Source: a virus
Length of the DNA stretch: 64,000 nucleotides
Virus record (IMG/VR): IMGVR_UViG_3300024999_000055
Coordinates: 42,331-106,330 of that record
Direction: 5' to 3' (one strand)
Position 1 is the first letter of the stretch. Every line of letters begins with the position of its first letter. Shown piece after piece: positions 16,490 through 62,907 of the stretch. The notes beneath the pieces were generated by a model. It searched no databases. It had not been told where the DNA came from and worked only from the letters and a program-made list of their open reading frames with translations. The position numbers and the translations under genes were made by a program.

Positions 16490-16600
16490 TTCTTTTTTAT
16501 TTTAATTTCATCACCAATCCTCGAATTTATTCAAATATTCCTATTTGATTTGTTAGATTATATTAACTCTAACTGGATGTAAACCTACACCCTCTATTCC
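16490..16600 (-). ncRNA. Probable TnpB guide-RNA scaffold / element right end
   Basis: TnpB proteins use an RNA made from the 3' end of their gene and the element end. Here the last codons form a 7-bp hairpin GGGTGTA/TACATCC, and 25-60 nt past the stop is a second imperfect palindrome GAATATTTGAATAAATTC. Both are typical of IS200/IS605 right ends. The exact border and guide start cannot be fixed without an empty-site comparison. Confidence 0.4.
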
Positions 16601-17767
16601 CTCTGCAAAAGCATCAGGAAATACTTTTTTAATAATCTGGTATGCACCATTTAAGTCTGCATTAATAAATTCACCTCCATTACTTTGAAATAATCCTCTT
16701 GCCACTCTTCTACTTTTATTATAATTTTCTTTACATGGTATTTCACCATCAAGAAAACTTGTACCAGAAGTATATGATTCTTCTGTTTCAATAAAATTAA
16801 TACCAACATTCTCACATTTGTATTTAATCTTTTCAATAAATAAACTATGTGGAATACCAACAAAATTCTGATTAACTTTCCTACTCATATTACTTTCTTG
16901 TTTCCAATCTTTATTTTTACCTACTACCACAGTATCGATATTATTCTCAATGCACCAATTAATTATGTATTTACTTGTTTTATGTATATAATCAGTTATT
17001 TTATTATTTCGTTTATTAGTTAATTGCTGTAGTTTATTACTCCAATTTTTATCATGTTTTAATTTTAAATCAGATTGTTTTTTAGATTTTTCTTTATTAT
17101 AATACTGATTTATAGATTTCAATGGTTTACCATTAATTATGAATGATTGTAATCCAATATTATTCCCTACAGTCGCCAAATTATCTATTCCAATATCTAT
17201 CCCTATTATATTGTTATTATAACTTATTTTTTCTGGAACATCAATTTCGTAAACAATTTCCATTATATATGTATCACTTTTTGGTATAAATCTCACTTGC
17301 ATAAGTTTACCATTTACATTAGTTCTTATTTTATTATTTAATGGTTTTAATTTACTCCAACTAAATCTTAAATAACCATCACTTATACTGAATTTAATAT
17401 TATCAATTATTAAATTATATCTTCCTTCTTTTTCTTTATAATTAGGAAGTTTAGGTTTACCTAAAAATTTATCTTTGTTTTTATTCCATTCTTTAATACC
17501 TGCAAAAAATGACCTCCAATTTTGATCAAGTAATTTTAAAGTTTGTTGACCTACATTGCTCCCTATTTCTTTATATGGTTCAGATTCTTTACACAACTGA
17601 AATAATTCATTATATCTAATCCATTTTTTATTATTTATAAATTCTTGACGAATTATATAATTAGCATAATTATAAAGATTTTTAGATTTAAAACATAACT
17701 CATCTATTAATTTCCATTGTGGATTATTCTTTTTAATGATATGTTGTTCAACTCTATTTGTTTTCAT
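16553..17767 (-). CDS. tnpB: TnpB-like (OrfB, IS200/IS605) RNA-guided nuclease
   Basis: 404 aa. Full OrfB layout: helical N-terminal half and a RuvC fold with D191 in GIDIGIDNLAT and D371 in NADLNGAYQI. The usual RuvC-II Glu position is G283 (VVVGKNKDW); the nearest acidic pair is E329/E330 in EESYTS, the arrangement seen in one large OrfB subgroup. The four-Cys zinc finger between motifs II and III is missing (only one Cys). No tnpA transposase gene lies nearby, so the element is not self-mobile. It has a long leader and its own promoter (17958-17986). Confidence 0.85.
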   Translation of the reverse strand: MKTNRVEQHIIKKNNPQWKLIDELCFKSKNLYNYANYIIRQEFINNKKWIRYNELFQLCKESEPYKEIGSNVGQQTLKLLDQNWRSFFAGIKEWNKNKDKFLGKPKLPNYKEKEGRYNLIIDNIKFSISDGYLRFSWSKLKPLNNKIRTNVNGKLMQVRFIPKSDTYIMEIVYEIDVPEKISYNNNIIGIDIGIDNLATVGNNIGLQSFIINGKPLKSINQYYNKEKSKKQSDLKLKHDKNWSNKLQQLTNKRNNKITDYIHKTSKYIINWCIENNIDTVVVGKNKDWKQESNMSRKVNQNFVGIPHSLFIEKIKYKCENVGINFIETEESYTSGTSFLDGEIPCKENYNKSRRVARGLFQSNGGEFINADLNGAYQIIKKVFPDAFAEGIEGVGLHPVRVNII

Positions 17768-33275: not shown

Positions 33276-35240
33276 CTAAATCATCTTAATAAATTCATCT
33301 TCGGAAAGCACATAAATACCATCTTTAATTGCTTTATCTACTTTACTACTACCTTTTACACTTCCAACTACAAGATAATCTAAACTCTTAGCATATCCTG
33401 AAGTAAATTCAGCACCCAAACCTTCAAGTAATGATTTTAATTCTTCTTTCTTGTAATTTGCAAACGTCCCAGTACAGTAAATCTTCTTAGAATGAAAAAA
33501 TCCATCTTTATTTGTTGTATTTTCCAACTTAATTTCCTCCTTCTTAACACTCACAACATCTAATAATTCCTTAATTTGTTTCATATTATCTTCATCTTGA
33601 AAATATGAATAAATACTCATTGCAGTAGTTTCGCCAAAATCTTTAATAGTCATAAATTTATAACCTGAATAAGATTCTGTTGCATCTAAAAAAGCATTAA
33701 TATCACTATTAAAATGTTTCTCTAATCTCTTAGAACTACCAAATCCAACATTTTTAATCCCTAAAGATGCAATTAGTGAACACATTTTAATACTCTTAGA
33801 ATTTTCAATCGCTTTAATCATCTTATTATAAGATTTCAAAGCAAAACCAGGAAGTGATATAATATCTTTTTTATATCTTTCTAGTTTAAAAATATCCATA
33901 TAACAATTAATAAAACCTTTGTCAATAAATACTTCTAATGATGCTTCACCAATATCACTAATATTAAAGCATTGTTTACTAACAAAGTGTTTTAATTTCT
34001 TAAGTAACTTTGCATCACAATCAGGATTAAGACAGAATAAATCATGAGTATTTACAACTTTTCTAACTTCTACTTTACCTTTACAAGTAGGACATTCTTT
34101 AGGAATTTCTTCAGTTCCACTTCTTGTAATATTATTTTCAATTGCAGGAATAATTTTGTTCCTCTTCGATATCTCAATCACATCATCTTTACCAAGTTTT
34201 AATTGCCAAAATCTATCTAAATTATGTGTTGTTGCTCTGGTTACTTCTGTACCTTCAATTTGAACTGGTTGGAAGATACCTGTACCTACAATTTTCCCAA
34301 ATCTACTTGTATTCCATTCAGTATATAGATATTTTGATTTATGCCAACTATCCTCGAATTTGAAAGAAATTGATCCATTATAATGATGATTGGTTTTGCC
34401 TAATGATTCTGCATATTTAATATCATTGAATGTTAGCACTAGGCCATCAATTGGATAATCAAAAGTAGGAATATCTTCTATAATTTGATTAATTGTTTCT
34501 TCAAGATTATTTTTATCAACAATCCAATATTGAACAGTATCAAATCCTTGTGATTTTAACCATTCTAATTGTTCAATTTTTGTATTAAATTTATTTCCTT
34601 TAAGAATATTAAAAGCACAAAATTCAATATTCCTATCTTTGCATACTTTAGAATCAAGCAAACCAACTGAACCATTCGCTAAATTCCTTGGATTTGCATA
34701 TCTATCATCTGGATTTTTAATTTTAGAGTTTAATTCATTGAATGAAGAATATTTCATATAATTCTCACCAATAATTTGAATCTCTTGTTCATCATCAATT
34801 GTTAATGGAATATTTTTAATACTATTACCATTATGAGAAATATCTTCTCCAATATTTGTTTCTGAATCTCCTCTAGTTACCAATTGTTTAAATTCTTTTT
34901 GATAAGTTATTTTACCTGTCCCACCATCAATTTTTAACATTAACACACCTTGTTTATCACCTAACCATTTTACCAATTTAGGAATTTCTTTGATCTTGTT
35001 AAGTGACAATAGAGGAATATCATGGTGTACTTTTGGTAGATTAGATACTACTTTATAACCTGCTCTTTGTGTAGGTGAATTAGATAATATGATATTAGTA
35101 GATTCTTCTAATGATTTAAGTTCGTCAAATAGAATGTTGTATTCACGATTCTCCATTATAGGAGTATTTAGATTGTAGTATGCATCACATGCTTTGTTTA
35201 ATTCTTTCACCAAATCTTGAATTCTCTTAATCTTATCCAT
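33276..35240 (-). CDS. ligA: NAD-dependent DNA ligase
   Basis: 654 aa, near the bacterial length (~670). Adenylation motif KIDG at K103, OB domain, Cys4 zinc finger (CPTC ... CLNPDC, about 395-420), helix-hairpin-helix region, and a C-terminal BRCT domain (YCTGTFANYKKEELKSLLEG, SLDYLVVG). Seals nicks using NAD rather than ATP, so phage replication depends on host NAD. AAAGGAGG supports the ATG. Adjacent to the operon carrying the other replication genes but on a separate transcript. Confidence 0.94.
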   Translation of the reverse strand: MDKIKRIQDLVKELNKACDAYYNLNTPIMENREYNILFDELKSLEESTNIILSNSPTQRAGYKVVSNLPKVHHDIPLLSLNKIKEIPKLVKWLGDKQGVLMLKIDGGTGKITYQKEFKQLVTRGDSETNIGEDISHNGNSIKNIPLTIDDEQEIQIIGENYMKYSSFNELNSKIKNPDDRYANPRNLANGSVGLLDSKVCKDRNIEFCAFNILKGNKFNTKIEQLEWLKSQGFDTVQYWIVDKNNLEETINQIIEDIPTFDYPIDGLVLTFNDIKYAESLGKTNHHYNGSISFKFEDSWHKSKYLYTEWNTSRFGKIVGTGIFQPVQIEGTEVTRATTHNLDRFWQLKLGKDDVIEISKRNKIIPAIENNITRSGTEEIPKECPTCKGKVEVRKVVNTHDLFCLNPDCDAKLLKKLKHFVSKQCFNISDIGEASLEVFIDKGFINCYMDIFKLERYKKDIISLPGFALKSYNKMIKAIENSKSIKMCSLIASLGIKNVGFGSSKRLEKHFNSDINAFLDATESYSGYKFMTIKDFGETTAMSIYSYFQDEDNMKQIKELLDVVSVKKEEIKLENTTNKDGFFHSKKIYCTGTFANYKKEELKSLLEGLGAEFTSGYAKSLDYLVVGSVKGSSKVDKAIKDGIYVLSEDEFIKMI

Positions 35241-38606: not shown

Positions 38607-38652
38607 ATACTACATATAGTATATTGTAATAATTATATACTATATGTAGTAT
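38607..38652. repeat. 17-bp perfect inverted repeat ATACTACATATAGTATA
   Basis: ATACTACATATAGTATA (38607-38623) and TATACTATATGTAGTAT (38636-38652) are perfectly inverted with a 12-nt spacer. It is the best copy of a family also at 39782, 44604 and 48882. No U-run, so a DNA-binding site or RNA hairpin. It sits between the 38658 gene stop and the promoter at 38537. Confidence 0.65.
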
Positions 38653-41581: not shown

Positions 41582-42823
41582 TCATTCTCCTGCCTTATAA
41601 TTATAAATAGGTTTAATAATATCTAATATTTCAACAGTATTATTAATATTATTAATAATTTCTTCTATAGGTTTATAAGCCATAGGTGCTTCATCAAGCG
41701 TATGTGTACTTACAGAATTAGTAAAAATATCTTTCATAGATTCTTGATAATCTTCCATAGATATATTTTCTTTTGCCTTACTTCTACTCATTAATCTACC
41801 AGCACCATGAGGAGCAGAATAATTCCAATCTGCATTTCCTTTGCCTACAGCTAATATTGATCCATCACGCATATTAATAGGAATTAAAACTTTTTCACCT
41901 TCATAAGCAGAAATAGCACCTTTACGAATAATATTATCTTTAAAATTAATGTAGTTATGAATTGTTTCAAATATTTTAATATTATGATATTCTTTTGCAG
42001 TTATTTCTCCTATTTTTATAAGTTTTAATAAAATAATATCTGCTATGATATATCTATTTAAAGTAGCATATTCTTGGCAAAGTTTCATATCATGTAAATA
42101 TTTATCTCTCCATTCACCAGAAAGAAAACATAAATCTTTTGGATAAGATGGATGTAAATTATTATACCTTTTCTCTAATTCTTTTAATGCACTATGAATT
42201 TCATTTCTCTTTCCTTGTTGCTTATAATCAGCAATTAACTTTTCTTTTTGTTCATAAAAATCACTTTTGCCACTACATAAATCTATAGCAATGTTTTGAT
42301 AATATTCTGCTACTTGTTTTCCTAAACTTCTACTTCCTGAGTGAATTACAAGATATAAATTATCATTGCTATCTTTATTTACTTCAATAAAGTGATTTCC
42401 TCCACCAAGAGTACCTATACTTTTTTCTATTCTTTTTGTATCTTTAAGTGACCTATAGCAATGTAATTCTCTCATTTCATCAAAGTCAGATATTCTATTT
42501 TTATGTGTATTTCTTCCTAATGGGACAAATTCACGAATAATATCATCTAATTTTTGTAAATCAATATTTACTTTTCCTAATTCAAAAACTCCCATACCAC
42601 AACCGATATCTACCCCTACAATATTAGGAATTACTTTATCTCTTAAATCAGCAGTAAATCCTATTACACAGCCTGACCCATAATGACAATCTGGCATAAT
42701 ACGAATTTTACCACCTTCTACAAAAGGTTGATTACATAATTCAATTATCTGAGATATAGCAGTTTGTTCAATATTATCAGTAAAAACTTTTGCAGTATTG
42801 TATTTTCCTTTTAATTCTAACAA
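41582..42823 (-). CDS. rtcB: RNA-splicing ligase RtcB
   Basis: Joins 2',3'-cyclic phosphate (or 3'-phosphate) RNA ends to 5'-OH ends using GTP and Mn. Seen: IRIMPDCHYGSGCVIGFTADL, VGVDIGCGMG, GTLGGGNHFIE, HSGSRSLGK, SAPHGAGRLMSRSKA (guanylated-His region) and the conserved C-terminal KAGE. 413 aa. TTG 42823 chosen because AAGGAGG is 7-8 nt upstream and gives MLELKGKYNTAKVF, the family start. Phage RtcB can undo host tRNA cleavage. Driven by its own promoter. Confidence 0.93.
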   Translation of the reverse strand: MLELKGKYNTAKVFTDNIEQTAISQIIELCNQPFVEGGKIRIMPDCHYGSGCVIGFTADLRDKVIPNIVGVDIGCGMGVFELGKVNIDLQKLDDIIREFVPLGRNTHKNRISDFDEMRELHCYRSLKDTKRIEKSIGTLGGGNHFIEVNKDSNDNLYLVIHSGSRSLGKQVAEYYQNIAIDLCSGKSDFYEQKEKLIADYKQQGKRNEIHSALKELEKRYNNLHPSYPKDLCFLSGEWRDKYLHDMKLCQEYATLNRYIIADIILLKLIKIGEITAKEYHNIKIFETIHNYINFKDNIIRKGAISAYEGEKVLIPINMRDGSILAVGKGNADWNYSAPHGAGRLMSRSKAKENISMEDYQESMKDIFTNSVSTHTLDEAPMAYKPIEEIINNINNTVEILDIIKPIYNYKAGE

Positions 42824-42850
42824 GTTTTCAACCTCCTTTATCTTAATGAC

Positions 42851-42879
42851 ATTATACAATTATTTTTATATTGTGTCAA
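42851..42879 (-). promoter_or_regulatory. Sigma-A-type promoter (TTGACA-17-TATAAT)
   Basis: TTGACA (42874-42879), 17 nt, TATAAT (42851-42856), perfect consensus. Just 28 nt before the rtcB start codon, so a very short leader. rtcB is therefore independently expressed. Confidence 0.85.
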
Positions 42880-43988: not shown

Positions 43989-44035
43989 ATATTAAATCTC
44001 CTTTATATTTTAATAAAATGTGTATGGTTATGATT

Positions 44036-44524
44036 TTATTCTATTACTTCAATTTTAACTTTCTTACCATTTAATCTTCTGCATAACTCCCATATACTTA
44101 TTCCATCTTTTCTTCCTAATAAAAACCATTGCCCTTCCATGTCATTATAAATTTCACCCTCATATGTAATATCAAGATATGGAATTATTAATTCATCTTC
44201 CACATATTTAATAAATATTTCTTTAGAATAATCTAAACCCCAATATGGGTCATCATAGTCAATTTTATGTCCATTATTTAGTATGCCATGTATACCAAAT
44301 TGAATATTTTCACTAACCCATCCATTACAATTAGAAGGATAAATGGTAGCATAATATTCAGTAATAGTTATAGAATATTTTTCTCTAATATATTCTATTG
44401 CTTTAGTTAAATTAATATTGATTATATCTTGCTTATTCATACATTCAATTTCATGTTGCACACAATTATAATGATCTGTAAATTCTTTATCACATTTTTC
44501 ACATTTATAAATTTCTTTTGGCAT
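44036..44524 (-). CDS. C2H2 zinc-finger protein, 162 aa
   Basis: N-terminal classic C2H2-like finger, YKCEKCDKEFTDHYNCVQHE (C-x2-C-x12-H pattern with a nearby His/Cys), which is rare in phages. The rest is alpha/beta with EYYATIYPSNCNGW and GQWFLLGRKDGISIWEL. A nucleic-acid-binding adaptor is plausible. GGAG precedes the ATG. Confidence 0.65.
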   Translation of the reverse strand: MPKEIYKCEKCDKEFTDHYNCVQHEIECMNKQDIININLTKAIEYIREKYSITITEYYATIYPSNCNGWVSENIQFGIHGILNNGHKIDYDDPYWGLDYSKEIFIKYVEDELIIPYLDITYEGEIYNDMEGQWFLLGRKDGISIWELCRRLNGKKVKIEVIE

Positions 44525-44592
44525 AATAATTTAGTCTCCTTTTTATTAATATGAAAGCAAAATTTGGCTCAAATATTACCAAAGATTCCTTT

Positions 44593-44652
44593 GATCATGA
44601 TTTCTATACTATATGTAGTAGATATATGGTTTTGTATCACTACATATAGTAT
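44593..44652. repeat. ATCATGAT plus 15-bp inverted repeat
   Basis: ATCATGAT (44593-44600), then TATACTATATGTAGT (44604-44618) and ACTACATATAGTATA (44638-44652), a perfect 15-base inverted repeat. Between the kinase stop and the zinc-finger gene start. The clearest case of the two elements in tandem. Confidence 0.62.
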
Positions 44653-44661
44653 ATTATTAAC

Positions 44662-46362
44662 TTATCCTACCTTATATATTTCTTTTTCATTAATAACTAT
44701 AAATTTACCACCTTCTCGCAATAATTTACTATCTTCATTTACAATATTACATTCAAAGTCTTTATAAATATTTTTTTCATAACTATAACCCTTAATACAT
44801 CCATCGCTTGGTTTAAATATTATATTATTATAGAAACATAAATTTCCTAAATCGTTAGTGTATTTTATTGCTTCACTTTCATATATTACATTATTTTTGT
44901 TTAAAACATAAGTATTAAATAATCCTTTTTGATTTTCAGTAATAAATAACCATCTCTTAGTTACTATATCATAATGCAAACCATAATTAATAATTTTATC
45001 AGTATTCATTAATGTGTAATTATATCCTGAAACATTAATGATTTTCATATTGTCATATATATTGCAAACAAAATATGTCTTATCATCAATAATTTCAAAA
45101 ATATTATTAAAAGAAACTTTACTAATATTTTTATTATAGTTTCCATTTTCATTAATGGTTAATTCAACCAAACTATTACTTAAATTAATATAATATACTT
45201 TATTATCAATTATTCTTACATCACTTTTATTAATCTTCTCAAATGTAAAAATATTATTTGATGTTTTAATCTGAATTTTATTATTAAATATTCCATAGAT
45301 AATACTTCCATCATTAGAAAAATAATATCTATTCTTCTTATTTTTCACCTTATATTTTGATTTAATATGAACGATATTATCATCATTATCTAAATATAAG
45401 TCTAAACTCAATATAGTTTTAATACTCTCATTTGTAAAATACAAAAATACTGGTATCCCATTACTACTTTCAATTTTAATAGGTTTATCTATTATCTTTG
45501 CTAAATTATTGCATATTGGACATTCCGTAAATTTACCATAGTAATATTCTTTATCTTTCTGACAATATTTTAAATTATTAAAATAGTCATCTAAACTATT
45601 ATCTATGATAAATCTTTTTTTATTTTCAAATACCTCTTTTAATTCTTCTAACATTTTAGGTGACATATAATTCCATTTATTTATTGTTTTAGGAATAGTA
45701 ACTTTATTATTATCAATAACTGATATACCTTTATTCATACGTTCTAATATATTTATATCTGGAGTAATTGTTCCTCCAAATGGATGTATCCTAGTTAAAG
45801 ATTTAAATATTAATATTCCAAAAGCATAATCATCTGTGTCAGAAGAAAAATTATTACTTGTTAATAACGGATCTTTAAATGAATCCATACATACTAAACC
45901 TTTGTATTTATCTATAGTCCAACTATCACAATCAATAAAATATATATTAAAATATTTATCAAATAAAATATTACAATCATTTAAGTCACTAATATATATA
46001 TTTTGATTGTGTAATTTTATTAGAGTATCTTTAATATTAACCAACATTTTAAGTATATCTTTTGATTTAATATTATTTGTTTGTAAATATTTCTTATTAG
46101 ATAGTCTTTTAAATTCTTCACCTTCAACTTTATCCATTAAATATCCTACAAACTTACCTTTATTATAAACAATATCATTAGGAATGATTACGTTATCAGG
46201 TAGTGTTTTAGACATTAATAACTTTACTTTTTCTAATTTTTCATTTTTATCAATATTACTTTTGTATATTTTAATAATCTGATTTTGATATTCATAAATT
46301 ATTCCTTCTCCACCTTCGGCTAGTGGATTTTGTTTTAAGAACTTATCATCTACCTGAATCAT
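44662..46362 (-). CDS. Protein kinase-like protein of a TerY/PP2C/kinase triad, 566 aa
   Basis: N-terminal ~300 residues are a Ser/Thr kinase fold: Gly loop EGGEGIIYEY, Lys in IIKIYK, catalytic-loop SDLNDCNILF (D and N kept, usual H-R replaced), metal motif IDCDSW in place of DFG. A Cys pair CPICNN follows near 280, then a beta-strand-rich C-terminal half (possible sensor/propeller). Adjacent to a PP2C and a vWA gene, the known 'TerY-phosphorylation triad' layout. Target unknown. Confidence 0.8.
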   Translation of the reverse strand: MIQVDDKFLKQNPLAEGGEGIIYEYQNQIIKIYKSNIDKNEKLEKVKLLMSKTLPDNVIIPNDIVYNKGKFVGYLMDKVEGEEFKRLSNKKYLQTNNIKSKDILKMLVNIKDTLIKLHNQNIYISDLNDCNILFDKYFNIYFIDCDSWTIDKYKGLVCMDSFKDPLLTSNNFSSDTDDYAFGILIFKSLTRIHPFGGTITPDINILERMNKGISVIDNNKVTIPKTINKWNYMSPKMLEELKEVFENKKRFIIDNSLDDYFNNLKYCQKDKEYYYGKFTECPICNNLAKIIDKPIKIESSNGIPVFLYFTNESIKTILSLDLYLDNDDNIVHIKSKYKVKNKKNRYYFSNDGSIIYGIFNNKIQIKTSNNIFTFEKINKSDVRIIDNKVYYINLSNSLVELTINENGNYNKNISKVSFNNIFEIIDDKTYFVCNIYDNMKIINVSGYNYTLMNTDKIINYGLHYDIVTKRWLFITENQKGLFNTYVLNKNNVIYESEAIKYTNDLGNLCFYNNIIFKPSDGCIKGYSYEKNIYKDFECNIVNEDSKLLREGGKFIVINEKEIYKVG

Positions 46363-46373
46363 TTAATCATCTC

Positions 46374-47018
46374 CTAAAATGCAATTGTAATATCATCTTT
46401 AAATAATTTATGTTCTCTATTTATTAATCTTTTAATAGCAAATTCTTTTCTGTTAATTAAACTTTTTTCAAATTCCTCTTTAAATTCACTATTTAAAATA
46501 TATTGCAAACCATCTGAAGCAATACCTATAGATTTATACTCGTCTTTTTTATAATATCTTAAATCAAAATTCACTCCATTTTTATAATCAGATAAATATT
46601 CTTCTGATATATAATTATAGGCATAATATTTAGGTTTATTATTTTGTTCTATTGTTTCATATTCTAAAATATCATCATATTTTTGTTTAATAATAATTCC
46701 GTCTCCACATGAATAAACAACAAAATGTTCTTCTAATTCTTCAACAAATAAAATAGTAAATAATAAGAAATCCTTAATATTATTTGGTTTATTATTTATA
46801 ATATTACTATTAAATATAACATTAAAAAAATCTTTTGTGCTAATAATAGGACATCCTAAATCTTCGTACATGTGACAAAACAATTTAACTCCCACTTCTG
46901 AATGTAACCCTTCCGAACAACCATCTACAACACATTTAATGTTATTATGTATAAATCCATAATCTTGATTATTTAAACCTTTTTCTAAATGACTATATCC
47001 TATTTTATTTATAAACAT
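46374..47018 (-). CDS. PP2C-like protein phosphatase
   Basis: 214 aa. Metal-binding Asp motifs of the PP2C fold: CVVDGCSEG (DG), SCGDGI, IASDGL and DDITIAF at the C-terminus. Shorter than average PP2C (~240-290), but the core motifs are in order. Removes phosphates placed by the adjacent kinase (inference from context). Lies 11 nt from the kinase gene and follows a hairpin after the vWA gene. Confidence 0.85.
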   Translation of the reverse strand: MFINKIGYSHLEKGLNNQDYGFIHNNIKCVVDGCSEGLHSEVGVKLFCHMYEDLGCPIISTKDFFNVIFNSNIINNKPNNIKDFLLFTILFVEELEEHFVVYSCGDGIIIKQKYDDILEYETIEQNNKPKYYAYNYISEEYLSDYKNGVNFDLRYYKKDEYKSIGIASDGLQYILNSEFKEEFEKSLINRKEFAIKRLINREHKLFKDDITIAF

Positions 47019-47036
47019 ATTATAATCTCCTTAATT

Positions 47037-47075
47037 TATACTAAGGTAAGAATTAATATATCTTACCTTAGTATA
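47037..47075 (-). promoter_or_regulatory. 15-bp inverted repeat between vWA and PP2C genes
   Basis: TATACTAAGGTAAGA (47037-47051) / TCTTACCTTAGTATA (47061-47075), perfect, 9-nt loop, inside an operon and without a U-run. Probably an RNA-processing or stability hairpin that adjusts expression of the genes on either side. Confidence 0.5.
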
Positions 47076-47091
47076 TTTATGTTTTTATTTA

Positions 47092-47766
47092 TTACATTGT
47101 AAAGAAATCATCTGTTTTATTTACTACATTTTTAGAACTTTCAATAACAGATTTTGATAAACAATTAAACGCCTTTCTTAATTCTGATGCAGAACTCTTA
47201 ACATCAAGTATATTTTTAAAATCTAATTGTTTAGCAATACTTGTTGCTCCTCCACCAAAACTTATAAATGCAGTTGTAATTTCTTCATTGTTAAGTGTCT
47301 GGATACTTCTTTTAGCATCTGATATTACATTTCTTGAAGAAGTATTATCACCATCACTAAATATTGCAAATACTGCTTTAACCCTCATTCCTTGATTTTT
47401 TAGAAATGTTATATAGTTAGTTAATTTCTCACTACCTTCTACGATTACATCATATAATGCCGTCATGCCATTTGAGGAATAAGCAATATCAAAATCTGAT
47501 ACTTTTTTATATCCTCCAACATTAATATAATCTGCAAAATCTGCTCTTGCTACAAGGATTTCGTCAATTTCTTTTGAATCTAATAGTGCATTTTTAAATT
47601 CATTTAATGAAAATTTCATGTCAGATACAAATGGATACATTGAACCAGAACCATCAATACCTACAAAGATAAGATTTACACTTTCATTATCAATTTCTTC
47701 TACAGAAGTATTCTCAATTTCAATTTCGTCCATACCTAAAATATCTAATTCGTTTGTCATAGTCAT
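47092..47766 (-). CDS. TerY-like von Willebrand A domain protein
   Basis: 224 aa. Complete MIDAS metal site: DGSGSM (DxSxS), a Thr in GMTALYDV and Asp in IFSDGDNTS. This is the TerY pattern of vWA proteins that appear with a PP2C and kinase, where it is thought to scaffold or be the target. GAGG precedes ATG 47766. Between the nicotinamidase and phosphatase genes. Confidence 0.85.
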   Translation of the reverse strand: MTMTNELDILGMDEIEIENTSVEEIDNESVNLIFVGIDGSGSMYPFVSDMKFSLNEFKNALLDSKEIDEILVARADFADYINVGGYKKVSDFDIAYSSNGMTALYDVIVEGSEKLTNYITFLKNQGMRVKAVFAIFSDGDNTSSRNVISDAKRSIQTLNNEEITTAFISFGGGATSIAKQLDFKNILDVKSSASELRKAFNCLSKSVIESSKNVVNKTDDFFTM

Positions 47767-47812
47767 AATATATTCCTCCTATTATTTTTATTATTTTATA
47801 TTTTTATTATCT

Positions 47813-48721
47813 TTAAAGTTTTAAGTCTGTTGATTTAAGTATATTTACTTTATATTGCTTTTTAAAAGATTTAAAAGCATTTTCTGTTGTTTGTTCAAAA
47901 CTTGGAATAGAAGACATACAATCTTCAAGAATGTAAATTTTCTTAGTTACTTCAGGTTTATTTTGATAATACTCAAGAATTTGTTTAATTGATTCTAAAC
48001 AACAGTGTGATTTTGCCTCACCCAAAACAACAATCTTATCAAACTTTTCAATCTTATTAAGAAAATCAATATTGATATAGTTTTTTGTATCATATTCTGG
48101 CTTAATCACCCCGTACATCTCGCTCAAAGGGTCTTGACCTTTAACAAGTCTAAGTGTCATACTTTTCTTTGCTACTGAATGAAAATAAACCATATTAGCA
48201 AATTGATTTTCTAATGCACAACCACTTGTACCTTGTAGGCAATGATATGTCCATATAACTAAAACCTTTTTACCTTGTTTTTCTAAATTCTCCACATATT
48301 CTCTACTTGCTTTAGGATTAACAACAGGCATCCATTTTCCAGAATCTAAATCTGCCAATGTAATTGCTGTAAATGGAGTAGGATTATTGCCTTTAGCATC
48401 TACCCACCAGCAAGGATGGAAAATTTGGAATGGGTTATGTGTATCAATTGATACAGCAATTTGTGAGATTTTATCCATATTATCATAAATAAATCTTGTG
48501 GAATTTTCAACATCTTTAATTGCTCCAGGTACACCCAACGCTCCATTATCCATAAAATCTTGTTGAACATCAATTCCGATTACTAATACACTTTCTGAAT
48601 TTTTACTTGCAGGAATCATTTGCTCATTGTTTGCTAATACTAACAAGTCATTCATCTTGATTGGATTTTCTGTTGCCCCGATAGATGATACATTTACGAT
48701 TTCCTCAAATTTTGTTTTCAT
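47813..48721 (-). CDS. Nicotinamidase-like cysteine hydrolase (isochorismatase family)
   Basis: 302 aa, longer than bacterial PncA (~190). Catalytic triad residues visible: Asp in GIDVQQDFMDN, Lys candidate in the middle, nucleophile Cys in GEAKSHCCLES, plus the cis-peptide GTSGC-like turn and DTHNPFQIFHP metal-site histidines. Converts nicotinamide to nicotinate in NAD salvage, if the family call is right. First gene of the operon with the vWA/PP2C/kinase triad; promoter at 48775-48803. Confidence 0.85.
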   Translation of the reverse strand: MKTKFEEIVNVSSIGATENPIKMNDLLVLANNEQMIPASKNSESVLVIGIDVQQDFMDNGALGVPGAIKDVENSTRFIYDNMDKISQIAVSIDTHNPFQIFHPCWWVDAKGNNPTPFTAITLADLDSGKWMPVVNPKASREYVENLEKQGKKVLVIWTYHCLQGTSGCALENQFANMVYFHSVAKKSMTLRLVKGQDPLSEMYGVIKPEYDTKNYINIDFLNKIEKFDKIVVLGEAKSHCCLESIKQILEYYQNKPEVTKKIYILEDCMSSIPSFEQTTENAFKSFKKQYKVNILKSTDLKL

Positions 48722-48774
48722 GTTTTTAATCTCCTTTTTATTTATATTTTTTATTTGTTTTATTTATTGATGTT

Positions 48775-48803
48775 ATTCTACCATACTAGTTAGTGACTGT
48801 CAA
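48775..48803 (-). promoter_or_regulatory. Sigma-A-type promoter (TTGACA-17-TAGAAT)
   Basis: TTGACA (48798-48803), 17 nt, TAGAAT (48775-48780), one base off consensus. It starts the nicotinamidase/vWA/PP2C/kinase transcript. An ATCATGAC/inverted-repeat element lies ~45 nt upstream. Confidence 0.78.
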
Positions 48804-48845
48804 CATATTTATTTTAATATTCTATTAATATTATACTTTATTTAG

Positions 48846-48922
48846 ATCATGACAAAACCAATATTTTATATTGAAATTTTCCTACATATAGTAGTATTTA
48901 ATTATTTAACCACTATATGTAG
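48846..48922. repeat. ATCATGAC plus 11-bp inverted repeat CTACATATAGT
   Basis: ATCATGAC (48846-48853), AAAACCAATATTTTATATTG, then CTACATATAGT (48882-48892) and ACTATATGTAG (48912-48922). Same family as 44593-44652, here upstream of the nicotinamidase promoter. Confidence 0.58.
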
Positions 48923-48932
48923 TATATAAAAA

Positions 48933-49142
48933 CTATTCTTCTACAATCTCATATTCATCATCAATTAAATATATCCATTCGTTTCCTTTATATTGAACAA
49001 ATACTCCCCTAATATTACCTTCCCAATTATAATCACCTATTGATTCTTTAGATTCTTCTATAGTTAACTCATTATATATTTTTGCTTCAACAATTTCTCC
49101 AACTTTCTCATTGAAATAATTAGATAATATTTTAACTTTCAT
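48933..49142 (-). CDS. SH3-like small protein, 69 aa
   Basis: MKVKILSNYFNEKVGEIVEA ... YLIDDEYEIVEE: five-strand small barrel pattern like the N-terminal part of 688-1230. The acidic tail is typical of these proteins. The start overlaps no ribosome site stronger than ATAATACATATG, so expression is uncertain. Unknown function. Confidence 0.6.
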   Translation of the reverse strand: MKVKILSNYFNEKVGEIVEAKIYNELTIEESKESIGDYNWEGNIRGVFVQYKGNEWIYLIDDEYEIVEE

Positions 49143-49147
49143 ATGTA

Positions 49148-49597
49148 TTATTCCTCCTCTTCATCCCATTCTTCTAACAATTCTATTGCTTCACTATAAC
49201 CTTTCCAGTTATCCACTCCTGCACATTTAAGTGCTTCTAAAAAATTACTATCTTTTAATAATTTATTATATTCTTCTAACGTAATATTTATAGTTTCATT
49301 ATTATATGTATTAAATTTCTCAATCAATTTAAAACATCTAGGTTCAATACTCTTATCAATATTAACACCAGGAACAAATGTTAATCCTTCGGCCACATTA
49401 TCTCCTTGTTGAGTAGAAACTTGAACTAAACAACCATTAGGTAAATTGCATACCTTTGTTGATTTCATCCATTTTTGATTTTTAGAACTTGCTTTACATA
49501 ATAATGCAAAAGTATCTCCGTCACCATAAACTTTAATATCATTAATTTTCTCTTTTGCTTGCTCAACGTTTTGAATGTTTAATGTTTTACTATTCAT
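49148..49597 (-). CDS. Hypothetical protein, 149 aa (start at internal AUG)
   Basis: ATG 49597 has GAGGAGG 8 nt upstream, the normal distance, so this is very likely the real start rather than ATG 49771 of the continuous 207-codon frame. Alpha/beta with GDGDTFALLCKASSK, GCLVQVSTQQGDNVAEGL and an acidic end (ELLEEWDEEEE). No family recognised. Confidence 0.65.
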   Translation of the reverse strand: MNSKTLNIQNVEQAKEKINDIKVYGDGDTFALLCKASSKNQKWMKSTKVCNLPNGCLVQVSTQQGDNVAEGLTFVPGVNIDKSIEPRCFKLIEKFNTYNNETINITLEEYNKLLKDSNFLEALKCAGVDNWKGYSEAIELLEEWDEEEE

Positions 49598-49771
49598 ATT
49601 ATTTTCCTCCTCTTTATTATTTGATATTTTTCTTTTAAATTCTTTACATCCACCAGGAGTGCAATCACCTTTGCCACAATTATTATCATTTCTACAATAA
49701 CCCATACATAAATTATCATTAAATTGCTTTGCACAATCAAAACAACAATCTACTTTATTATATTTATTCAT
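49598..49771 (-). CDS. Cys-rich miniprotein, probably fused by a one-base loss
   Basis: CCFDC, CMGYC, NCGKGDC, GGC: 8-9 Cys, a compact zinc or disulfide protein. Its frame runs on into the next gene with no stop. If one A is restored in the A5 run (49627-49631), it stops at TAATAA right before the ribosome site of 49148-49597, the normal layout. So the fused frame is probably an artefact or a real read-through. Confidence 0.5.
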
Positions 49772-49799
49772 ATGTATTCATTATCTCCTTTACATTTTT

Positions 49800-49949
49800 T
49801 TAAAATCTCAAATGCCATGCGTTCATCGCTCCACTTAACGCACCATTATCACCAAGCAATAAATATCCACAAAACATAATAAAAGTAGTAGTTACAATGT
49901 GACTTACCTCAATACTACCAATAACCTTTGTGTTTAATAATTCTTTCAT
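49800..49949 (-). CDS. Small membrane protein, 49 aa
   Basis: MKELLNTKVIGSIEVSHIVT then TTFIMFCGYLLLG: one transmembrane helix with short charged N-terminus and C-terminal WHLRF. GAGGAG precedes ATG 49949. Possible holin-like or toxin-like size, but no motif supports it. Confidence 0.55.
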   Translation of the reverse strand: MKELLNTKVIGSIEVSHIVTTTFIMFCGYLLLGDNGALSGAMNAWHLRF

Positions 49950-62295: not shown

Positions 62296-62907
62296 TTATC
62301 TCCATAAATGTTTACAAACTTCATCATACAACTCAAAATCCACATTTCTTATACTACTAATATAACTTTTTATAGTTTTTACATCTAACTCAAATATTTC
62401 ACTTGTTGCTTTTAAAGTTAATTTATCATTAACAATAGTCTTGCAAAGATTCAATCTTTCTTTAACATTTTTCATTTTTCTTATTCCAGAACGTATTTTG
62501 ATAGATTTAAGTTTATTTAATTCTATCATTTCTAATACCATAACATATAATTCAGGGTCATTATATTTAACATAGTTATGGAATAAATAATATATAGAGC
62601 GATTACTAGAATCAAAATGTATTCCAGTTTGTTTCATTGTACTTCCACAAATAAAATATTCACAAATTTCTTCATAGATACTGTTTAAGTTTTTCAATAA
62701 ATGATTTTGATGTTTTTCTTTTCTATCTTTTAAACAATTTTGGACTTTTGTATGTAATTCGGAATCAATATTTTCAATCATTTGTGTATAATTAAAAACA
62801 GTTTTAAAATTGATCCCGAATATATCTGCTGTTTTTCTATAAGAAAGATTGTGTTCTACTATATGTTCACATACTTTAATGATTAGTTCTTTGTTTATAG
62901 GTTTCAT
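62296..62907 (-). CDS. Triple SpoIIID-like helix-turn-helix protein, 203 aa
   Basis: Three similar units, each with a short helix pair and then the pattern D-x-E-L-Y/H: LSYRKTADIFGINFKTVFNY ... IDSELH, STMKQTGIHFDSSNRSIYYL ... NDPELY, LTLKATSEIFELDVKTIKSY ... VDFELYDEV. This is the layout of SpoIIID-type transcription factors, but in tandem triplicate. Likely a DNA-binding regulator of host or phage genes. The third unit keeps the best consensus. Confidence 0.78.
   Translation of the reverse strand: MKPINKELIIKVCEHIVEHNLSYRKTADIFGINFKTVFNYTQMIENIDSELHTKVQNCLKDRKEKHQNHLLKNLNSIYEEICEYFICGSTMKQTGIHFDSSNRSIYYLFHNYVKYNDPELYVMVLEMIELNKLKSIKIRSGIRKMKNVKERLNLCKTIVNDKLTLKATSEIFELDVKTIKSYISSIRNVDFELYDEVCKHLWR

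Follow-up and report, generated by a model that had tools for sequence, protein, structure and literature searches.

Why should a phage carry, in one short run of genes, an enzyme of nicotinamide metabolism together with the components of a protein-phosphorylation switch? The question arises from a locus in the viral record IMGVR_UViG_3300024999_000055 (106,330 bases), of which positions 42331-106330, a stretch of 64,000 nucleotides referred to here as the window, were analysed. On the minus strand lie in succession genes for a nicotinamidase-type cysteine hydrolase (302 amino acids, 47813-48721), a vWA-domain protein with a metal ion-dependent adhesion site (MIDAS; 224 amino acids, 47092-47766), a PP2C-type Ser/Thr phosphatase (214 amino acids, 46374-47018) and a Ser/Thr kinase (566 amino acids, 44662-46362), with 46, 73 and 11 bases between successive genes, each of which is preceded by a GGAG-type ribosome site. 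The nicotinamidase-like gene is abbreviated as NIC and the kinase as KIN, and L-numbers denote the loci and contigs compared. A preliminary description, made from the sequence of the window, had assigned these four identities, likened the last three genes to the TerY-type triads of bacteria, and suggested a phage-borne unit concerned with signalling and with defence or counter-defence through nicotinamide adenine dinucleotide (NAD).

Depletion of NAD is a major antiphage weapon of bacteria, and the phage answers found in the literature that we examined use nicotinamide or ADP-ribose directly. We propose that the operon is a Preiss-Handler nicotinamide-salvage module with the triad as its phospho-switch, a reading that we consider probable, if not strongly so. 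That the module serves NAD synthesis appears well supported by its sequences and surroundings; the triad may control NAD salvage, and the module may counter NAD-depleting defence.

Results

Conservation of the four-gene order

When viral contigs were searched with NIC as the sole seed, 72 were returned; a vWA search added eight, and the surroundings of all 80 were examined by profile scans. All four genes are present in 68 of the 80, and the exact order NIC-VWA-PP2C-KIN on one strand is found in 58. The full set occurs in 60 of the 72 NIC-seeded contigs, several of the incomplete ones being cut by contig ends, and in every one of the eight that the vWA search contributed. In the more distant phages among them, with contigs of up to 619 kb, identity to the window drops to 17-40%; the cassette was also recovered from three huge phages of a public phage set, and a megablast search of phage records with an 18-kb core stretch returned no relative. 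The gene order first noticed in this single phage is, on these figures, conserved across phage genomes.

Active sites of the four proteins

Residues of NIC are numbered as in the window protein. NIC matches the Isochorismatase Pfam model weakly (0.003) and a nicotinamidase model at 4e-7, and scores 30 bits against the PncA equivalog (PRK11609), whose cut-off is 174; since it falls so far below that cut-off, it appears to be a divergent nicotinamidase subfamily and not canonical PncA, relative to which it has an N-terminal extension and an insertion. A profile built from 11 relatives (A1) and run against the PDB found nicotinamidases at 2.6e-15 and 1.1e-13, with isochorismatases far behind. Six residues are invariant in 149 of 149 relatives: the catalytic Asp-Lys-Cys (D51, K194 and C240) and the metal-site ligands D93, H95 and H160; H102 is kept in 139 of the 149. 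Isochorismatases are not known to have the nicotinamidase-type Asp/His/His metal site. With that site kept, and with nicotinamidases as the best PDB matches, the alternative that NIC is an isochorismatase was rejected.

The vWA protein has no Pfam match of its own, and its AlphaFold2 model (predicted local distance difference test score, pLDDT, 84) matches PDB vWA domains with an E-value of 8e-9. The MIDAS residues D38, S42, T102 and D138 are intact in 96 of 96 relatives, and Escherichia coli YegL matches the protein at 5e-7. The phosphatase belongs to PP2C_2 (PF13672, 6.8e-9), its metal-binding Asp residues are invariant in 86 of 86 relatives, and E. coli PphC matches the family; PDB profile searches with the vWA and PP2C proteins gave nothing useful.

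The kinase comprises a Pkinase domain (PF00069, 1.4e-8) at about residues 1-265, a partial CxxC zinc knuckle at about 268-284, represented in the window protein by one CxxC and one upstream Cys, and a strand-rich C-terminal domain of about 270 residues (about 295-566) that is propeller-like in the AlphaFold2 model (pLDDT 93.6). A fold search of the PDB with this model identifies a kinase fold; the matches listed are all kinases, and the propeller-like character of the C-terminus, taken from the strand count of the model, is not confirmed. The CxxC is present in 28 of 80 kinases and gapped in the other 52, huge phages included.

Attention had been drawn to an altered HRD motif (ISDLND) and to IDCDSW in place of DFG. 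Both are indeed present, but they are not special to this kinase, being common to E. coli YegI, which matches it at 3e-25 and shares the motifs GD-x-N (GDVNQN in YegI) and ID-x-DS (IDSDSF). ISDLND retains the catalytic D126 together with N131, and IDCDSW the DFG aspartate D144; D126 and D144 are found in 80 of 80 relatives, K31 and N131 in 78. Because the altered motifs keep the catalytic and metal-binding aspartates, the kinase is predicted to be active and does not look dead, and the dead-kinase alternative was rejected. Family, fold and active-site evidence together bear out the four identities originally assigned.

Association with genes of NAD synthesis

PncB, NadE and adenylyltransferase were searched for in 40 NIC-bearing phage records, that of this phage included. 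The PncB family was found in 24, NadE in 26 and the adenylyltransferase (NMNAT) family in 24. In 18 of 24, 21 of 26 and 14 of 24 records, respectively, the gene is no more than 15 kb from NIC, against expectations of 4.0, 4.3 and 3.1 (combined p ~1e-10, 7e-12 and 2e-6), and nearly all of these proximal genes are on the same strand as NIC. Auxiliary genes are numerous and clustered in large phages, and the locus might accordingly be a chance or artefactual hitch-hiking cluster of unrelated ones; but the order is kept in 58 of 80 contigs and NAD-gene proximity has p ~1e-10, and we reject this explanation on the proximity statistics as highly improbable.

Four phages have PncB and NadE within the cassette itself, the order being NIC-VWA-PncB-NadE-PP2C-KIN in L081 and L086, NIC-VWA-PP2C-PncB-NadE-KIN in L103 and NIC-VWA-NadE-PncB-PP2C-KIN in L096. 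Elsewhere PncB-NadE stands directly upstream of NIC (L072, L080, L083), PncB precedes the cassette and NadE follows it (L066, L088), or an NMN-type (nicotinamide mononucleotide) adenylyltransferase precedes NIC (L012-L014, L025-L027). The nicotinate phosphoribosyltransferase (NAPRTase, TIGR01514) and NAD synthase of L081 exceed the curated equivalog cut-offs, which argues for a nicotinate-specific route in that phage, and nicotinate models were the best match of the phosphoribosyltransferases checked.

Blind clustering of the neighbours in 58 contigs gave a similar picture, the only families in at least eight contigs, besides the cassette itself, being PncB, NadE and a NadM/NUDIX/NrtR group. 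Next came calcineurin-like phosphoesterases and NADAR proteins, in seven contigs each; a further seven-contig cluster, on the opposite strand over the cassette genes, looks like spurious frames and was set aside. Pfam confirmed the NrtR and NADAR neighbours, and an example of the latter lies at 4826-5530 of L036 (PF08719, 3.6e-30), with others near the cassette in six other phage contigs. The link extends to cells that have NIC but no triad, several Bacilli carrying NIC-PncB or NIC-PncB-NadE and Sphingobacterium carrying NadE-NIC. Since the genes found within the cassette or next to it include PncB, NadE, NMNAT, NrtR and NADAR, the connection with NAD supply that had been suspected from the nicotinamidase is upheld. 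Separately, the window encodes a NAD-dependent DNA ligase (33276-35240, minus strand; PF01653, 5e-40), and LigA-like ligases lie near the cassette in five other phage contigs.

The same surroundings bear on the possibility that the triad is a TerY-P-like switch for defence or superinfection exclusion, which would exclude competing phages while its NIC partner would clear nicotinamide or aid cell survival. TerY-P triads are known as antiphage systems (PMC7699616, PMC11090510), and in a PADLOC scan the kinase weakly resembles the defence kinases PD-T4-6 and MAD6, with nothing convincing for the other three proteins. Yet no TerY-P defence model matched the vWA protein or the PP2C in that scan, nor the kinase, the presence of such a model in PADLOC not having been checked. 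The recurrent neighbours are NAD-synthesis genes and not nucleases or toxins; no ter or restriction/defence family recurs near the cassette in the 58 contigs, among which no search was aimed at ter genes. NAD genes are moreover inserted within the triad itself, and the operon is also found in bacterial chromosomes, adjoining NadE. We judge a defence switch distinctly unlikely.

Bacterial copies and evolutionary history

A genome scan found the full cassette in contigs of Clostridia and Lachnospiraceae and in one Saccharibacteria contig. From its flanking proteins, read by eye, L177 looks clearly chromosomal, the cassette having UvrB, CoaE, RNase Y and NadE to one side of it and, to the other, phosphotransacetylase and acetate kinase; L131, L167 and L160 likewise look clearly chromosomal. 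The last, from a Saccharibacteria genome of 0.8 Mb, has the cassette beside NadE, PncB, NrtR and a probable phosphoribosyl pyrophosphate (PRPP) synthetase, a compact NAD-salvage island. L125 matches a viral contig and is thus a prophage, and the cassette of L162 lies between two serine recombinases. The cassette is rare in cells, a full-length cassette kinase being present in 2 of 291 sampled genomes of the class of L177. Nevertheless, the chromosomal copies led us to reject a phage-only origin, and to that extent the unit is not the purely phage-borne one that had been supposed.

Both the NIC tree and the kinase-domain tree (the latter by a quick tree method) divide into three deep clades, which agree between them: one of four phages (L003, L029, L030, L100), a large one of huge phages, and a Firmicutes-type clade that holds this phage and the cellular copies; none of the three includes YegI or the other kinase-vWA pairs. 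Across 45 loci from distant phages the pairwise distances of the four proteins are correlated (r 0.45-0.83, 0 of 2000 permutations), which fits a long joint inheritance of the four genes. In clostridial L235 (1654-7188) a vWA protein is paired with a protein of 1582 amino acids encoded after it, whose kinase domain is of the cassette type; L206 and L207 have giants related to it.

Some phages have kinases that phosphorylate proteins of the host, T7 gp0.7 being an example, and many bacteria have NIC but no triad. Both facts would suit an operon that is shared by genes with separate jobs, NIC supplying NAD while the kinase, PP2C and vWA protein re-programme host proteins of transcription, translation or assembly. 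Against this, the coupling has been kept through deep divergence, with three clades in both trees, and a cassette residing in a cell has no host to re-programme. Such a division of labour seems to us unlikely, though worth keeping in view.

Promoter, hairpins and transcript

The sequence TTGACA-17-TAGAAT with an extended -10 TG (48775-48803, minus strand) is the best promoter pattern of the region, agreeing with the consensus at 11 of 12 positions; near-consensus sites number nine in the window, all on the coding (minus) strand, against 1.5 expected. A search for intrinsic terminators over 44000-49900 found none, and a hairpin with a 15-bp stem (47031-47080, minus strand; z -4.6) occupies the junction of the vWA and PP2C genes. 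The proposed promoter is in this way confirmed as a pattern. With no terminator found, but with this strong hairpin in the path, an uninterrupted four-gene transcript is plausible though unproven. Each of the eight relatives that were folded (8 of 8) has a strong hairpin at this junction, its position being conserved and its sequence mostly different; junction hairpins are listed for the window and for L009, L010, L012-L014, L024 and L132, and a U-run follows the hairpin in L009, L024 and L132. It is possibly an attenuator that would make NIC and the vWA protein more abundant than PP2C and the kinase.

The motif CTACATATAGT has 11 matches in the window, against 2.0 expected. Inverted pairs of it lie between genes at 38610/38639, 39786/39816, 44608/44640 and 48882/48912, with one copy mismatched, and two of the four pairs flank the cassette: one upstream of the promoter (48882-48922, 14-bp stem, z -5.5) and one downstream of the kinase gene (44608-44650, stem-loop, z -4.6), neither assigned to a strand. 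An Rfam scan of the window at gathering scores gave no match, and hence no known NAD riboswitch in it.

Other genes of the window

Just upstream of the operon, a gene at 49148-49771 encodes a Cys-rich protein with a C-terminal domain like the RecBCD inhibitor T7 gp5.9. Further genes include a TnpB/OrfB-type gene (16553-17767; PF01385, 1e-26), an RtcB RNA ligase (41582-42859; PHROG, 3.8e-138) and, at 62296-62907, one whose product begins with a SpoIIID-like DNA-binding domain (PF12116, 1e-12), a sporulation regulator fold in a phage; all four are on the minus strand.

Discussion

The mechanism that we envisage has four steps. Nicotinamide is left over when NAD is consumed and when NADase defences act; NIC would hydrolyse it to nicotinate, a step that seems well supported by sequence and context. 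Nicotinate would then be converted to NAD through PncB, adenylyltransferase and NadE; this appears well supported for the relatives, and the present phage may depend on those of its host, or on genes that its 106-kb record does not include. The kinase, which would dock or sense by means of its propeller-like domain, could work in opposition to the PP2C, and the two together could set the phosphorylation of the Mg-dependent vWA protein, of NIC, or of both, and the phosphorylation state could turn nicotinamide salvage up or down. The phage might benefit by keeping up NAD during replication and against host NADases.

Several observations weigh against this salvage reading. The action of the kinase and PP2C on NIC, the vWA protein or NAD enzymes is something that we infer. 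The totals of 72 and 80 contigs, and the counts drawn from them, include near-identical contigs and do not represent independent events. PncB and NMNAT were each found in 5 of 10 vWA-only phage records, a small control, and NadE in 2 of 10; since the control also often has PncB and NMNAT, it is proximity to NIC and not mere presence that constitutes the signal. A search for PncB, NadE and NMNAT in the 106-kb record of this phage, which may be a fragment, found none. The two halves of the cassette also exist apart: NIC stands without the triad in Bacilli and Bacteroidota, which indicates that it needs no triad, and there are triads without NIC. Finally, agreement between the gene trees is also to be expected from shared phage ancestry.

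As to purpose, the module could chiefly restore NAD after TIR, SIR2 and other NADase defences, in the manner of the NARP pathways, and this would be compatible with a salvage module. NADase defences release nicotinamide, NADAR proteins lie near the cassette, and NAD reconstitution by NARP1 is established in phage (PMC13232231, PMC12774641). The bacterial chromosomal copies, on the other hand, suggest a housekeeping origin, and the NAD-dependent DNA ligase of this phage represents ordinary NAD demand. Counter-defence as the chief role is a serious possibility, though in our view less likely than not.

More broadly, the cassette may be an ancient and widespread module, common to large phages, Clostridia and Saccharibacteria, that places the salvage of nicotinamide to NAD under the direct control of Ser/Thr phosphorylation by way of the kinase, the PP2C and a vWA adaptor, and that gives phages a further, nicotinate-based route of NAD reconstitution; we think this wider claim quite possible without calling it probable. 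If true, it would add such a route to phages with contigs of up to 619 kb, and in the bacterial counterparts of Clostridia and Saccharibacteria the ordinary balance of NAD may be governed in this way too. The pairing also suggests a substrate pathway for kinase switches of the YegL-PphC-YegI or TerY-P kind, and makes the function of the triad directly testable.

Comparison with known systems

That the coupling of a nicotinamidase to the triad was undescribed, as first suggested, holds for the literature searched, which contained no description of it, most subscription journals lying outside its reach. Where a survey of viral NAD systems deals with NAD synthesis by phages, NadV, NadM and NadR are the only names given (PMC9503650), and the words nicotinamidase, PP2C and TerY are absent both from that survey and from one of jumbo phages (PMC7824862). 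One gut phage paper has a nicotinamidase in a table, with the vWA protein, PP2C and kinase unmentioned (PMC10607447). In Actinobacteria a kinase with a zinc ribbon and a beta-rich domain has been reported beside PP2C and vWA genes (PMC7159879), and is perhaps of the same architecture as the cassette kinase.

TerY-P has been described as a set of vWA, PP2C and kinase-zinc ribbon proteins, with an OB-fold version that is an antiphage defence (PMC11090510, PMC7699616). The cassette agrees with it in three parts, its operon combining homologues of all three kinds whose MIDAS, PP2C and kinase residues are intact; of the zinc ribbon there is at most a partial counterpart, the CxxC knuckle of the Firmicutes-type kinases. 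It differs in having a nicotinamidase as first gene, NAD-synthesis genes as neighbours and a kinase with a long propeller-like C-terminal domain, the huge-phage versions being without the zinc knuckle. The comparison with a TerY-type triad is borne out most directly by E. coli YegL, PphC and YegI, each of which matches the corresponding cassette family only; the order vWA-PP2C-kinase and the GD-x-N and ID-x-DS kinase motifs are common to both, whereas the annotation of the E. coli stretch shown includes neither a nicotinamidase nor NAD genes, and the C-terminal half of YegI is different. YegI is reported to autophosphorylate and to be dephosphorylated by PphC (PMC13232886).

On the metabolic side, NIC resembles PncA of Preiss-Handler salvage in its Asp-Lys-Cys triad and Asp/His metal ligands, and in its linkage to PncB, NadE and NMNAT; it differs from PncA in score (30 against 174 bits), in its N-terminal extension and insertion, and in being phage-borne and tied to a kinase/phosphatase pair. 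With NARP1 (Adps, Namat) and with salvage by NadV, NadM and NadR the cassette has in common that NAD rebuilding is encoded by phage, but its route would run by way of nicotinate, through nicotinamidase, nicotinate phosphoribosyltransferase and NAD synthetase, and it is accompanied by a phospho-signalling triad.

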